Origin: Chryseobacterium bernardetii
GTDB taxonomy: Bacteria; Bacteroidota; Bacteroidia; Flavobacteriales; Weeksellaceae
Assembly: GCF_003815975.1 (NCBI RefSeq)
Contig: NZ_CP033932.1
Coordinates: 1,674,001 to 1,738,000 of the forward strand
Direction: 5' to 3'
Length of the DNA stretch: 64,000 bases
A program made the translations under genes and the position numbers. The notes under the pieces are model-generated. The model saw only the letters and a list, made by a program, of their open reading frames with translations, was not told the DNA's origin and ran no database searches. Positions 42,303 through 50,067 of this stretch are shown piece after piece. The number at the start of each line of letters is the position of its first letter. Positions within the stretch are counted from its first letter, which is position 1.

Positions 42303-43589
42303 ATGTCAGACAACAAAGTAATATTGAATTACGCAGGTAATTCATATGAATATCCAATTGTGGATAGTACTATCGGAGACAGAGGGATTGATATTTCAAA
42401 ATTAAGAGACCAGACAGGTTTAATCACTCTGGATTTAGGTTACAAAAATACAGGAGCTACTATTAGCGACATCACTTACTTAGACGGAGATAAAGGAGAG
42501 TTATTCTACAGAGGTTATCCAATTGAGCAGATTGCTGAAAAATCTAACTTCACTGAAGTAATGTATCTTTTATTACATGGAGAATTACCTACTCAGGACC
42601 AATTTGCTTCTTTCGAAAACAACATTAAAAAATATAACTTTATTGCAGACGAGATGAAAAAAATCATCGACGTTTTCCCTCGCTCTGCTCACCCTATGGG
42701 AGTTTTATCTTCTTTAACTTCCGCTTTAACAGCTTTCAACCCGAAAGCCGTTAACGTAAACTCTAAAGAAGAAATGGATCATGCTGCAGAGCTTATGATC
42801 GCTAAGTTCTCTCACCTTTGTGCATGGACTTACAGAAAGACTCAAGGTTTACCATTAAACCACGGTGATAACAACCTAAACTACGTAGAAAACTTCTACA
42901 AAATGGCATTCAGATTACCAAACGCTGACTTCGAAATCGATCCGGTAGTTGTAAATGCATTAGATAAATTACTAATCCTTCACGCAGATCACGAGCAAAA
43001 CTGTTCTACTTCTACAGTAAGAATGGTAGGTTCTGCTCACACAGGTCTTTTCGCTTCTATCTCTGCTGGGGTATCTGCACTTTGGGGACCACTTCACGGT
43101 GGTGCTAACCAGGCTGTAATCGAAATGCTTGAGCTTATCGAGAAAGATGGTGGTGATGTATCTAAATATGTTGCTAAAGCGAAAGATAAAAACGATAACT
43201 TCCGTCTAATGGGATTCGGACACAGAGTTTACAAAAACTTCGACCCAAGAGCGAAGATTATCAAGAAAGCTGCTGATGATATCCTTAAAGCATTAGGTAT
43301 CCAGGATAAAGCTCTTGATATTGCAATGCAGTTAGAAAGAGTAGCACTTGAAGACGAATACTTCGTAGAAAGAAAACTATATCCAAACGTAGACTTCTAT
43401 TCAGGTATCATTTACAGAGCATTAGGAATTCCTACAGAAATGTTCACTGTAATGTTTGCATTAGGAAGACTACCAGGATGGATCTCTCAATGGAAAGAAA
43501 TGAGATTGAAAGGAGACCCAATCGGAAGACCAAGACAGGTTTACCAAGGTGCTCAGCAAAGAAACTATATCGATATTGCAAGCAGATAA
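42303..43589 (+). CDS. gltA: Citrate synthase
   Basis: Citrate synthase (428 aa) condenses oxaloacetate with acetyl-CoA at the entry of the TCA cycle. The catalytic triad motifs are LLILHADHEQNCSTSTVRMV, PLHGGANQAVIEML and the Asp in NVDFYSGIIYRALGIP; FGHRVYKNFDPRAK is also present. The roughly 50-residue N-terminal beta domain (YEYPIVDSTIGDRGIDISKL) marks the Gram-negative hexameric type I enzyme, which is NADH-inhibited in E. coli. It is full length. Confidence 0.97.
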   Translation: MSDNKVILNYAGNSYEYPIVDSTIGDRGIDISKLRDQTGLITLDLGYKNTGATISDITYLDGDKGELFYRGYPIEQIAEKSNFTEVMYLLLHGELPTQDQFASFENNIKKYNFIADEMKKIIDVFPRSAHPMGVLSSLTSALTAFNPKAVNVNSKEEMDHAAELMIAKFSHLCAWTYRKTQGLPLNHGDNNLNYVENFYKMAFRLPNADFEIDPVVVNALDKLLILHADHEQNCSTSTVRMVGSAHTGLFASISAGVSALWGPLHGGANQAVIEMLELIEKDGGDVSKYVAKAKDKNDNFRLMGFGHRVYKNFDPRAKIIKKAADDILKALGIQDKALDIAMQLERVALEDEYFVERKLYPNVDFYSGIIYRALGIPTEMFTVMFALGRLPGWISQWKEMRLKGDPIGRPRQVYQGAQQRNYIDIASR

Positions 43590-46151: not shown

Positions 46152-48326
46152 ATGATTATCAAATTATGGTTCTTATTGTTGCTACTATTATTATCTATTT
46201 TGGGGAAGGCACAGGAAATCTCAAAAATGAATGTTTCAGATTCTCTGCCGGATAATAAAAGTTCCACTACAACTATTTCGGAAGTTGTTATTCAATCCAC
46301 TTCACGCAGGATGAAGCTCAATGACGGGAATCTGGTACTCACAGTTGCCGGAAATAAAGACTTTAAAACCGCGACTCATCTTCTTGATGTCCTTAGAAAA
46401 ACTCCGGGAGTCTCTGTAGAGCAGGAAGACGGAATTTTTATTGGCGGAAGAATTTCTCCGGCCATTTTTATTAACGGGAAGCAGATTGTAATGAGCAGTC
46501 AGGAATTACAGGCATATTTAAGGTCTTTATCTCCTGAAATGGTAGAATCTATAGAGGTTAATGCCAACCCTTCTTCTAAATATGATGCAGAATTTAAAGG
46601 GATTATTGATATCAGGTTAAAAAAGAATGTTAATCTGGGCTGGAAAGGTAATTACAATGGAAATGTGTATGTGAATAAATTCAGCTACCGGGAAAATGCT
46701 TTCAATATTTCTTATCATACAGGAAAAGCCACTTACAGCATACAGGGAGGAATTAACGATGGAATTTCAACGTACCGGTATGAGGCTTTACAGCATTTGG
46801 CCAACACGAATATTATGCGAACCAATACCTATCAGAAAGATCAGGGAAAAGTTTACAGTATTCAGGCAGGAGCAGACTTTACGTTAAATGAAAAAAATAG
46901 GCTTGGCTTTAGTTTAAGGGGTAATTCAAGGAAAAATGACCGCATCCGGAACGGATCACTTTATACTGTTGATAATGATGAATCTCAAACTATCTTTAAT
47001 ACAGCCAGTGAAAATCCTATAGATTATAATCAGGAAAACTATGGAATAACAGCTGATTATTCCTTTCAGAATAAACAATTTAAGATTGATTTTATTGGGA
47101 ATTACCTTTCCGTTAAAAACAGTCAGGTTGATGATTTTATCAATAAAGAAGCATCTACAACTGGTATTTTGTCTTATTGGAAGTCAGATCTTTTGAATAA
47201 AATTAATATCTATATTGCTCAGGCTGATGCTTCCCGGAAATTAGGAAATGCAGATTTGGGCGCCGGGATTAAATACAGCAGTTCATATACACGTAATAAT
47301 ATCAGGTATGATACACTATCCGCAGGTAATCAGTTTAGTTATGATCCCATACGGAGCAATATATTTTCGTATAAAGAAAAAATATGGGCAGGTTATGTAA
47401 GCTACAGGCAAAAATTTGGAAATTTTCAGATCAATGCAGGAGTAAGACTTGAAAGTACAAATAGTATATCAAATGCAATGAGTACTGATTCCATTGTCAA
47501 AAGAAATTACCTTGAGTGGTTACCTTCCTTAAGTCTTAATTACACATTCAATAAATCCAGTGAATTTTCCCTGTCTTACAGCAGAAAGATAACAAGACCA
47601 GCTTTTTCTCAGCTTAATCCTTTCCGGTACTATTTCAGTCCGTTGAACTATCGGATAGGGAATCCTTATCTGCAGCCTTCATTTACAAGCCAGATTAAAG
47701 CAACCTATCGTTATAAAAACTGGATAACAAGCTTTGTTATTGGAAAAGAAAAAGATGTAATGGCCCGTTATCCACTGTATAATCCGGAAACAAATGTTTT
47801 GGAATACCTTGGGACAAATTTGCCTTATCGGAATTTTGCAATATTTGAAACAAGCTTTCCGGTAAAAATTACGAAATGGTGGAGCGTGACCAGCCAAATA
47901 ACAGGATATTATAATTATGAATTTATGCCCTATCTGGATGAGGTCTTTGCACTGAATGTCTATAATTATGAACTGAGATTAAATCAGGTATTTTCCCTTC
48001 CGAAAGGTTATACGGTGAATGTTTTTGCCAATTATGAATCCAGAACAGGAAATAGCCTTTACATCATTAAACCGAGGTATAATGTAGATATTTCAATCCA
48101 GAAATCATGGCTGGATAATAGGCTTAATACAAAAATCGGTTTCAATAATATTTTTGATTCTTATGAGCAACGCTTAGAGTTCAGGCATAAACAGATTATG
48201 GATAATCGGTTTACACATTGGTGGGACAGCAGCAGATTGATTTTTTCTCTGAGTTATAATTTTGGAAGTTCAGATTATCAGCTCAAAGAAATCCGGAAAA
48301 CAGAAGAAGAAAATAGGACAAGGTAA
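46152..48326 (+). CDS. Outer-membrane beta-barrel receptor (OMP_b-brl_3-like)
   Basis: The 724-residue protein has a signal peptide (MIIKLWFLLLLLLLSILGKA), a TonB plug-like domain (ISEVVIQSTSRRMKLNDGNL, HLLDVLRKTPGVSVEQEDGI, RISPAIFINGKQIVMSSQEL) and a C-terminal beta-barrel of about 500 residues resembling the TonB-dependent OMP_b-brl_3 family. The AraC-type membrane regulator just upstream is the likely controller. The ligand is unknown. Two paralogs of the same barrel type lie in tandem at 54.1-58.7 kb. Confidence 0.82.
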   Translation: MIIKLWFLLLLLLLSILGKAQEISKMNVSDSLPDNKSSTTTISEVVIQSTSRRMKLNDGNLVLTVAGNKDFKTATHLLDVLRKTPGVSVEQEDGIFIGGRISPAIFINGKQIVMSSQELQAYLRSLSPEMVESIEVNANPSSKYDAEFKGIIDIRLKKNVNLGWKGNYNGNVYVNKFSYRENAFNISYHTGKATYSIQGGINDGISTYRYEALQHLANTNIMRTNTYQKDQGKVYSIQAGADFTLNEKNRLGFSLRGNSRKNDRIRNGSLYTVDNDESQTIFNTASENPIDYNQENYGITADYSFQNKQFKIDFIGNYLSVKNSQVDDFINKEASTTGILSYWKSDLLNKINIYIAQADASRKLGNADLGAGIKYSSSYTRNNIRYDTLSAGNQFSYDPIRSNIFSYKEKIWAGYVSYRQKFGNFQINAGVRLESTNSISNAMSTDSIVKRNYLEWLPSLSLNYTFNKSSEFSLSYSRKITRPAFSQLNPFRYYFSPLNYRIGNPYLQPSFTSQIKATYRYKNWITSFVIGKEKDVMARYPLYNPETNVLEYLGTNLPYRNFAIFETSFPVKITKWWSVTSQITGYYNYEFMPYLDEVFALNVYNYELRLNQVFSLPKGYTVNVFANYESRTGNSLYIIKPRYNVDISIQKSWLDNRLNTKIGFNNIFDSYEQRLEFRHKQIMDNRFTHWWDSSRLIFSLSYNFGSSDYQLKEIRKTEEENRTR

Positions 48327-48330
48327 AAAT

Positions 48331-48352
48331 AACCTGCTTAAAAAAGCAGGTT
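48331..48352. terminator. Bidirectional terminator, receptor and peptide 1
   Basis: AACCTGCTT (48331-48339) pairs with AAGCAGGTT (48344-48352). On the + strand TTTATATTTTTT follows; on the - strand ATTTTTA follows. It ends both the receptor transcript and the first Cys-rich peptide gene. Confidence 0.8.
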
Positions 48353-48360
48353 TATATTTT

Positions 48361-48519
48361 TTATGGGCAAACACAGTTACCACAGGTCCAGATTCTGCAG
48401 CTGCCATCCTCATTCCACTCACAGCAGTATCTTTCCCTTATAATACCTCCGGTTACTGATTTTTGTTGCTCTCTTCCTAGTTTCTGTGCATTTTTAAGCA
48501 CTGGATTGTTTTTGTTCAT
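48361..48519 (-). CDS. Cys-rich double-glycine peptide 1 (RiPP/bacteriocin-like precursor)
   Basis: A 53-codon frame encodes a 52-residue peptide. The first 20 residues are MNKNNPVLKNAQKLGREQQK, then SVTGG (Gly-Gly at 24-25), then a core with five cysteines: RYCCEW, four residues plus Cys41, then C46 and C49, and a CVCP end. The leader resembles the double-glycine leaders of bacteriocin-like and RiPP precursors known from Chryseobacterium. It is too short for routine gene calling. Its neighbour at 48698 has an identical leader. No maturation enzyme or peptidase-transporter is in the window. Natural-product function is inference; translation of this frame is supported by the paralog. Confidence 0.78.
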   Translation of the reverse strand: MNKNNPVLKNAQKLGREQQKSVTGGIIRERYCCEWNEDGSCRIWTCGNCVCP

Positions 48520-48571
48520 GATTTTGTTGTTTTGATGTTAATAGTTAAATTTTAATTTTTTTATAATCTTG

Positions 48572-48594
48572 CAAAATTATATCACTAATATATG
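48572..48594 (-). promoter_or_regulatory. Upstream region of peptide 1, shared with peptide 2
   Basis: A minus-strand -7 box TAATTTTG (48572-48579) lies 53 bp before the start codon. The 22 bp at 48573-48594 are identical to 48914-48935 upstream of peptide 2. No clear -33 element is seen. Confidence 0.5.
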
Positions 48595-48666
48595 GATTTA
48601 TTTAAAAAAATAATAAAAACCAATGAATAATTGATGAGTGAAATATATTGATATTGAGCAAAATAA

Positions 48667-48688
48667 AGCCTGCTCGAAAAAGCAGGCT
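48667..48688 (-). terminator. Terminator of peptide 2
   Basis: AGCCTGCT and AGCAGGCT form an 8-bp stem; on the minus strand TTTATTTTG follows. It begins 10 bp past the stop codon at 48698. Confidence 0.75.
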
Positions 48689-48697
48689 ATATTATTT

Positions 48698-48862
48698 TTA
48701 TGGGCATACACATCTATCACAAGTATAGATAATGCATTTTCCTGAAGGATCCCACTCACAACATCTTTTGCCTGTTGAGATTCCTATTCCACCCACTACT
48801 GTTTTTTGTTGTTCTCTTCCTAGTTTCTGTGCATTTTTAAGCACTGGATTGTTTTTGTTCAT
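48698..48862 (-). CDS. Cys-rich double-glycine peptide 2 (RiPP/bacteriocin-like precursor)
   Basis: A 55-codon frame encodes a 54-residue peptide. Residues 1-20 are identical to peptide 1 (MNKNNPVLKNAQKLGREQQK); TVVGG follows with Gly-Gly at 24-25. The core has KRCCEW, five residues before C43, then C48, C51 and the CVCP end, so six cysteines counting the CC pair. The spacing of Cys matches peptide 1, while residues between them differ, the pattern expected of a diversified core under a conserved leader. It has its own terminator and an upstream region similar to peptide 1, indicating cassette duplication. A CtlX-like gene pair lies divergently at 49153. Confidence 0.78.
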   Translation of the reverse strand: MNKNNPVLKNAQKLGREQQKTVVGGIGISTGKRCCEWDPSGKCIIYTCDRCVCP

Positions 48863-48912
48863 GATTTTGATTTTTGATGTTAATAGTTAAGTTTTAAACA
48901 ATATAATTTCGC

Positions 48913-48935
48913 GAAAATTATATCACTAATATATG
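48913..48935 (-). promoter_or_regulatory. Upstream region of peptide 2
   Basis: The 22-bp segment 48914-48935 is identical to that upstream of peptide 1; the -7 box here is TAATTTTC, one base from the consensus, 51 bp before the start codon. Confidence 0.45.
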
Positions 48936-49102
48936 AAATTAAAATTAAATAATATCTGTTTTTTTGTTCTTATATAGATGAAATATAGTAGGTTGTAGAT
49001 ATTTTTATATACCAACCCCTGTAGTTGGCTTAATAGAAGGAGAAATTTGCTGCATAGTGTTTATTGAGAGTCCCAAATTTCATAGAGAAAATAAGGCAAA
49101 AG

Positions 49103-49133
49103 TTTTATAGGTAGAGACCTTTACTTATATTTG
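49103..49133 (+). promoter_or_regulatory. Promoter of the amidinotransferase/CtlX pair
   Basis: TTTT (49103-49106), a 19-bp spacer and TATATTTG (49126-49133), which matches TAnnTTTG, end 19 bp before the ATG at 49153. Confidence 0.6.
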
Positions 49134-49152
49134 TAGTATTGCATAAATCTTT

Positions 49153-50067
49153 ATGAGACTAAACATTAAAAACGAAACGGGGAGGCTGAGATCAGTAGTT
49201 TTGGGCCAGCCTAATTCATTGGGACCGGTTCCCACGCTAGAGGAAAGTTATGACGCCAAGTCATATTACTCAATCGAACACAATATTTATCCTAAAGAAG
49301 AGGATATTATCAATGAAATGAACGCTTTTGAAGCGGTGTTGAAAAAGTATGATGTTGAAGTACTTCGCCCAAGTATCATTAAAGATTATAATCAGGTCTT
49401 TTCAAGAGACGTAGCTTTTGTAATTGATGATAAGATGATTATTTCCAACGTAATTGCAGACAGAGCAGATGAGCAGGAAGCATACAAAAGTGTTTTTGAA
49501 AAAGTAGCCTGGAGAAAAATTATTAATCTGCCGGAAACAGCACATATTGAAGGTGGAGATGTTATTGTATGGAATGACTTCCTTTTTATCGGAACCTGCT
49601 TCAGCGAAGATTACAGAAACTATAAGACGGCAAGAACTAACGAGTATGCCATTGAAATTCTAAAAGAATATTTTCCGAAGAAAAGAATCATAGATCTTGA
49701 ACTGAAGAAAAACGATAAAGTACCTTTTGAAGGAATTTTACATCTTGACTGCACTTTCAATCCAGTAGGAGAAGACAAATGCATCATCTACAAAAACGGA
49801 TTCGTAGATGAAAGCGATTATCGTCTTATCATCGATATTTTCGGAGAAGAAAACTGCTTCCACATCAATGATGAAGAAATGTTTGAAATGTTCCCGAACA
49901 TTTTCTCTATTTCTCCGGATGTTGTAGTTTCAGACAAAGCATTTACGAGAATGAATAACCACTTAAGAAACGAATGGGGAATGACTGTAGAAGAAATTCC
50001 TTACAGGGAAATCTCTAAAATGGGTGGACTACTGAGATGTTCTACAATGCCGCTTGTAAGAGACTAA
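49153..50067 (+). CDS. Amidinotransferase/dimethylarginine dimethylaminohydrolase-like enzyme
   Basis: A 304-residue protein of the guanidino-modifying (pentein) superfamily, which uses a Cys-His-Glu/Asp set on arginine-like substrates. Visible elements are FSRD (about 83-86), HIEGGDV (H131, D136), HLDCTF with His about 197 and a C-terminal LLRCSTMPL with the nucleophile Cys about 296. DDAH converts N-methylated arginine to citrulline; amidinotransferases move the amidino group. Which reaction applies here cannot be read directly. It is followed 67 bp later by a CtlX-like gene, so citrulline made by the first enzyme could be used by the second. Confidence 0.85.
   Translation: MRLNIKNETGRLRSVVLGQPNSLGPVPTLEESYDAKSYYSIEHNIYPKEEDIINEMNAFEAVLKKYDVEVLRPSIIKDYNQVFSRDVAFVIDDKMIISNVIADRADEQEAYKSVFEKVAWRKIINLPETAHIEGGDVIVWNDFLFIGTCFSEDYRNYKTARTNEYAIEILKEYFPKKRIIDLELKKNDKVPFEGILHLDCTFNPVGEDKCIIYKNGFVDESDYRLIIDIFGEENCFHINDEEMFEMFPNIFSISPDVVVSDKAFTRMNNHLRNEWGMTVEEIPYREISKMGGLLRCSTMPLVRD

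Follow-up and report, generated by a model that had tools for sequence, protein, structure and literature searches.

We propose that two short genes on the minus strand of the window (the whole stretch of 64,000 nucleotides analysed here) encode secreted, disulfide-bonded mini-peptides, which would be cleaved and exported in trans by a C39-type ABC exporter and have their cysteines paired by a VKOR-thioredoxin fusion protein (VKOR-Trx), the module being shared by many leader peptides; we put the probability of this reading at about 0.63. Peptide gene A (48698..48862, minus strand) encodes 54 residues, with the leader at 48788-48862, a predicted mature peptide of 29 residues after Gly-Gly and a core ending in TCDRCxCP (type A), and peptide gene B (48361..48519, minus strand) encodes 52 residues, with the leader at 48445-48519, a predicted mature peptide of 27 residues after Gly-Gly and a core ending in TCGNCVCP (type B). 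Reading of the open reading frames bore out the first-pass annotation, which had described two minus-strand frames of 52 and 54 residues with a shared 20-residue leader and a Gly-Gly site: leader residues 1-20 are identical in both peptides, Gly-Gly is found at positions 24-25 in both, and the genes differ by a single base over their first 60 nucleotides. The six-cysteine CCEW pattern claimed for the cores also stood, while the first spacing, given as four to five residues, is five in both peptides, and the core of each reads CCEW-x5-C-x4-C-x2-C-V-C-P. The six cysteines are packed within about 22 residues, with C-x2-C-x-C-P at the end.

Peptides A and B are real genes and not chance reading frames, given the 17 relatives that keep all six cysteines and the final proline, the 80 loci found in other genomes, pN/pS ratios of 0.10-0.25 and the presence of an upstream element and a hairpin at each gene. 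The 17 relatives came from a search of 5.8 billion proteins, and all eight that carry an organism name belong to Chryseobacterium. In the unfiltered alignment of these relatives with the pair, the six cysteines, CCE and the final proline are invariant in 19/19 sequences, and so are L7, A10, L13, R15, Q18, K19 and both glycines of the leader (numbered as in peptide A minus Met). From 84,980 species genomes a scan returned 82 relatives, of which 80 loci were kept (54-92% identity), 78 of them titled Chryseobacterium and the other two being Weeksellaceae MAGs. Homologues with a conserved leader and cysteine spacing, for which the first-pass annotation had suggested looking in related genomes, were found in both searches.

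The Pfam scan of both peptides gave nothing above cut-off, and the search of solved structures with the peptides gave no meaningful relative (best E 0.34); the AlphaFold2 model of peptide A is of low confidence (mean pLDDT 60.3, pTM 0.32). Against NF047798 (leader_Chryseo, 'bacteriocin-like protein') the window peptides score 16.6 and 14.1 bits, under the curated cut-off of 23.5; NF047792 (CCPGW) gives 12.1 bits for peptide B, under its curated cut-off of 80, and no match for peptide A, and no NCBIfam model is over its cut-off on the CCEW core of either. Of 36 members of the family that were scanned, 23 are matched by leader_Chryseo (best E 3.8e-4) and 12 by CCPGW (best E 5.3e-4). The leader signature is common to these models and the CCEW family, although the CCEW matches are weak. 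The CCEW pair belongs to a conserved family without a Pfam or NCBIfam model over cut-off, and double-glycine peptides are the known class into which it falls. The open-access literature covered (titles and abstract openings, among the matches listed, with most subscription papers outside) holds no description of the CCEW family and none of a VKOR-exporter link in Chryseobacterium.

The family occupies a fixed position in the chromosome. The citrate synthase gene (42303..43589, plus strand) and the divergent gene for an arginine-deiminase/DDAH-like protein (49153..50067, plus strand) form the edges of the conserved locus and flank the peptides in 80/80 loci, while the outer-membrane beta-barrel protein between them (PF14905; 46152..48326, plus strand) has a relative in 47/80. 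From 79 of the 80 loci (L115 gave no clean reading frame) we collected 96 family genes, which together with the two of the window comprise 51 of core type A, 37 of type B and 10 of type C, with one to four genes per locus and up to three core types in one locus; these 98 members were chosen by their cysteine pattern, so that their cysteine invariance is by construction. The third reading frame of locus L048, seen in a looser scan, departs from that pattern. In the 173 genomes of the genus the family is found in at least 150 at E 1e-3, at least 129 at 1e-6 and at least 125 at 5e-18 or better. Across the Weeksellaceae (320 genomes, with no more than 20 candidates scored in each) E 1e-6 is reached in at least 129, which belong to a single one of the 33 genera, and at that threshold the 147 genomes of the 32 other genera gave no match. 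In viral contigs ten stretches fit a pattern and none of them encodes a CCEW relative.

The deiminase-like gene was considered as a maturase and rejected: it is kept in 20/20 genus genomes chosen for lacking the CCEW family, and so is probably unrelated in function; citrate synthase lies within the 1.5 kb flank in 11 of these 20. On a tree of this gene (100 rows out of 101 intended, made up of 79 named loci, the window and the 20 family-less genomes, with genome G068 outside), presence of the CCEW family needs 3 changes. A single gain with two losses would account for these, although the number of changes cannot by itself separate gain from loss. The fixed locus and the tree of the flanking gene together suggest that the pair is a vertically inherited chromosomal gene rather than a mobile bacteriocin cassette. 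Beside the deiminase-like gene of genome G040 (locus L161, about 2700-2815) there is an apparent broken CCEW remnant, with a core-like tail in one frame and the intact leader gone.

The sequence differences between the two cores had been taken in the first-pass annotation as a sign of a core diversifying under a constrained leader. This idea is contradicted by the pN/pS ratios between species, with cores at least as constrained as leaders: in type A they are 0.160 for the core and 0.207 for the leader (uncorrected; 636 of 1275 pairs, equal lengths only), and in type B 0.096 and 0.249 (uncorrected; all 666 pairs). Each core type recurs between species, and the difference between A and B in the window arises because each gene belongs to a different core type, A or B, both of them conserved. 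The linker past Gly-Gly varies in length from 6 to 9 residues. The identity of the leaders was set aside as proof of constraint alone, as nucleotide identity of A and B leaders within a locus (0.883) is slightly above that between loci (0.851 for A-B, 0.865 for the same type; 10 loci); some copying of leaders within a genome is possible, the effect being small and relatedness uncontrolled.

Each gene is also preceded by its own copy of a partly palindromic element (TTCATATATTAGTGATATAATTTTCGCGAAATTAT...), found at 48896..48937 before gene A and at 48555..48596 before gene B, both on the minus strand. Across the family the upstream block, aligned for a sample of the genes, is strongly conserved with the consensus TTCCTATATTAGTGATATAATTTTCGCGAAATTAT, and its short core TT[AC]GTGA[TA]A stands before 89/98 family genes, 57-70 nt from the ATG in 88 of those 89. 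Three of the nine genes lacking the core motif (the B genes of L049, L050 and L052) start 39-45 nt behind an A gene and so may be co-transcribed with it. The motif is missing at 19/20 peptide-less loci, where the single match looks unrelated. Terminator-like hairpins follow gene A (48667..48688, minus strand; 9 pairs, then T-rich) and gene B (48331..48352, minus strand; this one could also serve the convergent gene of the outer-membrane protein), and the terminator scan of 48200-49200 on both strands gave 4 sites against 0.3 expected. The copy before gene B suggests that B has its own transcription start and, with a hairpin behind and an element before each gene, A and B look like two separate transcription units. 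The element is a putative promoter or operator. The standard sigma-70 promoter scan showed no excess (6 versus 5.8 expected) and Rfam over 47800-49600 gave nothing above the gathering score; the box TAnnTTTG, which is of Bacteroidota type, occurs by itself before 8/88 genes versus 4.7 expected from simple shuffling.

What would such peptides do? Our guess is that, once outside, they target other cells, antagonism towards close relatives being slightly likelier than signalling. Among the neighbours seen no immunity gene was recognised, which weakens the toxin reading. A secreted signal, a pheromone sensed by the same genus, is the alternative that survives best, although we consider it unlikely. 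The strong purifying selection on the core and the fixed chromosomal locus would suit a signal as much as the lack of a recognised immunity gene does, and so would the upstream element, which in the part of the genome examined stands before none of the other leader peptides (with a weight matrix run on this DNA, scores over 10 are confined to the two copies of the window). However, no sensor kinase was recognised among the partly annotated neighbours, up to four copies and three core types in one locus speak against a signal, and the predicted mature CCEW peptides are longer and more Cys-rich than known double-glycine pheromones. An AraC-type regulator is encoded 2.3 kb from the pair and has a relative in 47/80 loci.

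The proposed export of disulfide-bonded peptides by a shared module has its context in the rest of the genome, where the leader_Chryseo model gives 23 matches over cut-off and 47 at E 10. Forty-three of the 47, the window pair included, can be read as short double-glycine-leader peptides (accepted cleavage sites G-G/A/S/E/K; the N-terminus of 4013112 was shortened to the leader Met); the four dropped are two in long frames (690 and 436 aa), 210648, where the short reading frame was not recovered, and 4497327, which is without a cleavage site. After the cleavage site these peptides carry 2 (two peptides), 3 (one), 4 (15), 5 (one), 6 (21) or 8 (three) cysteines, so that the number is even in 41/43 and 4 or more in 40/43, while the leaders hold zero. 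The model spans the leader only, so that its use did not favour even numbers; those of the 43 that stand in tandem are not independent of each other. In the genus, leader matches at E 1e-3 are found in at least 160 of 173 genomes, from at least 1 to at least 47 in each.

Some of these peptides are grouped. Five lie on one strand at 2806399-2807384 (locus L188, G000:C1:2804200-2808200), four of them with C-x5-C-x4-CC-x3-C-x4-C after the cleavage site, a C-C-CC-C-C order like that of inhibitor cystine knots. Six others are found in 3.9 kb (locus L183, G000:C1:4292800-4296700), with 4, 6 or 8 cysteines after the cleavage site, and one at G000:C1:4027881 (locus L020) differs from the rest in having a long Gly-Val repeat ahead of its four cysteines.

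Two C39 exporters are found in the genome, at 1.31 and 1.87 Mb, both outside the window (1.674-1.738 Mb). The first-pass annotation had noted no transporter within the 64 kb, and whole-genome searches for C39 exporters and MNIO enzymes agree, placing all of them elsewhere. The C39 ABC exporter that we favour (locus L016, G000:C1:1866008-1868194) is about 145 kb from the pair and belongs to a cluster whose genes all lie on one strand: first come the grasp-with-spasm ATP-grasp and the SPASM maturase, then VKOR-Trx, a leader peptide, the C39 ABC exporter itself and last HlyD. VKOR-Trx scores 37.4 bits against PF07884 (VKOR; cut-off 27.5) and 30.4 against PF13462 (Thioredoxin_4; cut-off 23.2), and its C-terminal part is similar to DsbA-like proteins of solved structure (E 1.5e-5). 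Its C174, C186, C253-RV-C256 and C365-GF-C368 are invariant in 37/37 aligned rows (66-100% identical to the first). Among the matches listed, the VKOR-Trx gene precedes that of the exporter by 0-5 kb, in the same orientation, in 132/139 genomes compared; of the seven exceptions three have the two farther apart on one contig and four on different contigs, and in G042 and G162, outside the 139, they are adjacent by eye. The leader peptide encoded between VKOR-Trx and the exporter scores 25.4 bits with leader_Chryseo, over cut-off (19.9 without Met), and has three cysteines, an odd number.

The N-terminus of VKOR-Trx (L016:8542-10050) shows a weak C39-like match, to the later part of the profile only, which is seen in two of four VKOR-Trx proteins at 13.2 and 13.5 bits, below the cut-off of 22, and this part might bind leaders. 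Near the second C39 exporter (locus L015, G000:C1:1306000-1320000) there are a thioredoxin-like protein and two small double-glycine-leader frames, which by eye resemble class II bacteriocins.

Across the genus the module and the peptides occur together. Genomes with a VKOR-Trx match (E 1e-20) have leader matches in 159/162 cases, against 1/11 of those without (Fisher p 6e-13, n=173), and with an exporter match (E = 0, corresponding to 89-100% identity among the matches listed) 159 genomes have leader matches and 4 have none, while otherwise the numbers are 1 and 9 (p 2e-11, n=173; G128 counted among those with the exporter). The CCEW family itself (5e-18) is found in 125/162 genomes with VKOR-Trx and 0/11 without, and neither an exporter match nor VKOR-Trx is missing from any of the 125 CCEW genomes, counting as present the exporter of G128, which is fragmented in this poor genome. 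These p-values ignore kinship, and the leader and family counts are lower bounds. On the tree of the deiminase-like gene, where the 80 named loci carry no VKOR-Trx state, that state undergoes 5 changes among 21 rows, at least 3 of them on well-supported branches, and provides only 3 independent pairs, of which 2.8 agree on average (p = 0.25). The link between VKOR-Trx and the peptides is consistent and repeated, correlative, not phylogenetically independent and not statistically proven. VKOR-Trx without any leader match is the state of three genomes, G029 (where VKOR-Trx is matched weakly), G088 and G137. Genome G068 has neither a C39 nor a VKOR-Trx match, yet four leader_Chryseo matches and one weak CCEW match (4.6e-5); another exporter or decay could explain these leaders.

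In the mechanism that we propose, the C39 peptidase domain of the distant ABC exporter would recognise the 25-residue leader and cut it after Gly-Gly, the core of 27-29 residues would be exported with the HlyD partner, and the six core cysteines would be paired by the VKOR-thioredoxin fusion, whose gene stands directly before that of the exporter; the same exporter and VKOR-Trx would also serve many of the roughly 40 other scattered Cys-rich leader peptides. With the loss of 6 H on such pairing, the predicted monoisotopic masses of the cores would be 3199.384 Da (A) and 3201.281 Da (B). Cleavage and export by this exporter are suggested by homology, and disulfide formation by this VKOR-Trx by the even cysteine numbers and the linkage. 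Double-glycine precursors go with PCAT exporters in Bacteroidales, according to the available part of PMC10352776, and the C39 protease LahT, as described in the available part of PMC6363468, binds leader residues -4, -7 and -12 in a hydrophobic groove. In the 43 leaders of this genome position -12 is L/I/V in 43/43, -10 is K/R in 42/43, -6 is K/R in 43/43, -4 is I/V/L in 43/43 and -2 is G in 43/43, with L/M in 34 and Gln in 5 at -7; in the CCEW family -12 is L in 89/89 and -4 is I/V/L in 88/89 (GG being required by selection here and invariant in the unfiltered 19). However, the family has Gln at -7 in 88/89, not a hydrophobic residue, while LahT needs one there, Leu-7 to Lys or Asp being harmful (PMC6363468, in the same part). 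The CCEW leader fits C39 recognition at -12 and -4, and Gln at -7, in place of the usual Leu, would speak against it or indicate a special fit. The suggestion made in the first-pass annotation, of bacteriocin-like double-glycine-leader precursors processed in trans, is supported. Against a shared module stand the odd-Cys peptide in the cluster, the second C39 exporter, G068, the three genomes with VKOR-Trx and no leader match, the association with the SPASM maturase and the NF047798 scores below cut-off; it is the odd-Cys peptide inside the exporter cluster that keeps our confidence at the value given above rather than higher.

It is improbable, in our opinion, that the pair are true RiPP precursors, in which an enzyme encoded elsewhere (grasp-with-spasm, radical SAM or other) modifies the core before export. 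In favour of such a model is the grasp-with-spasm pair adjoining the exporter, about 145 kb from the peptides (TIGR04193 412.8 bits, TIGR04192 346.3 bits; the genome has a second TIGR04193 match), together with the distribution of the CCEW family, which is found in 115/138 genomes with a TIGR04193 SPASM maturase match and 10/35 without (p 1e-9). However, those 10 of the 125 CCEW genomes (among them G135, 73% complete) lack a TIGR04193 match at E 1e-3, and six of them, read at the exporter, have VKOR-Trx, C39 ABC and a HlyD-like frame together in 6/6, VKOR-Trx being identified by Pfam in three and by likeness to that of L016 in the rest. The SPASM maturase, the only modifying enzyme tested genus-wide, is associated with the CCEW family and not required, which does not favour the dedicated enzyme considered in the first-pass annotation. 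Maturation by an MNIO, also raised there, fares no better: the single MNIO found in the genome is ChrH (NF050165, 696 bits), at 3.55 Mb and 1.8 Mb from the pair, and ChrH precursors end in CPxCGxG (PMC12636315, in the part available), a C-terminal motif absent from peptides A and B, which makes ChrH an unlikely partner. A metal-binding or redox-active secreted peptide using free thiols, for which the dense cysteines and the C-x2-C-x-C-P end could speak, is very doubtful, since even cysteine numbers in 41/43 peptides and a disulfide-forming enzyme beside the exporter point to oxidised cysteines.

The closest precedent is provided by the bacteroidetocins, for which class IIf is proposed (Coyne et al. 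2019, PMC6671954, in the part of the paper available, as for all that we say of them here). Both systems combine a short double-glycine leader, a Cys-containing peptide, a C39 ABC exporter, an oxidoreductase and no recognised immunity gene, in Bacteroidota. Four genes make up the bacteroidetocin cluster: besides the peptide they specify a TM protein, a C39 exporter and, in most regions, a thiol oxidoreductase, and when the gene of the last was deleted the activity was reduced (PMC6671954). In contrast, the CCEW locus has no such cluster of TM protein, oxidoreductase and C39 exporter. The window is free of C39 matches, the CCEW machinery is about 145 kb away and would serve many peptides, and the CCEW core has six cysteines, against four in bacteroidetocins A and B. 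Prochlorosins resemble the CCEW set in that some 30 double-glycine precursors in one genome are discussed with one transporter protease (PMC6363468, available part), although these are thioether-crosslinked lanthipeptides and for the CCEW set only disulfides are implied. The ChrA-ChrH MNIO system (PMC12636315, available part; see also PMC10214503) comes from the same genus, with ChrH in this genome, but its own precursors carry CPxCGxG and the CCEW peptides do not. Precursors of the graspetide or grasp-with-spasm kind would be encoded with their maturase pair and depend on it, whereas the CCEW pair lies about 145 kb from the matched one and occurs in 10 genomes without a TIGR04193 match.

What is surprising is the setting and not the pair: scattered disulfide-type peptides with, probably, one shared export and oxidation module. 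It is conceivable, though we hold this wider picture only tentatively, that Chryseobacterium genomes hold dozens of disulfide-rich mini-peptides as a scattered arsenal, part of it knottin-like in Cys pattern, for which a C39 exporter and a VKOR-DsbA-type oxidase act in trans as one line dedicated to secretion and oxidative folding. The CCEW pair would be a cargo of this line that is inherited vertically across the clade and has a regulatory element to itself. As the precursors stand alone, cluster-based genome mining would tend to miss them. If the picture is true, a bacterium can maintain scattered mini-peptides rich in disulfides that share a single line for folding and export, and these would also be a source of new folded peptide scaffolds. 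There would then be one genetic switch, as removal of one exporter or one oxidase would be expected to turn off dozens of peptides together, and the purpose of this peptide layer in a common environmental and opportunistic genus would become directly testable.
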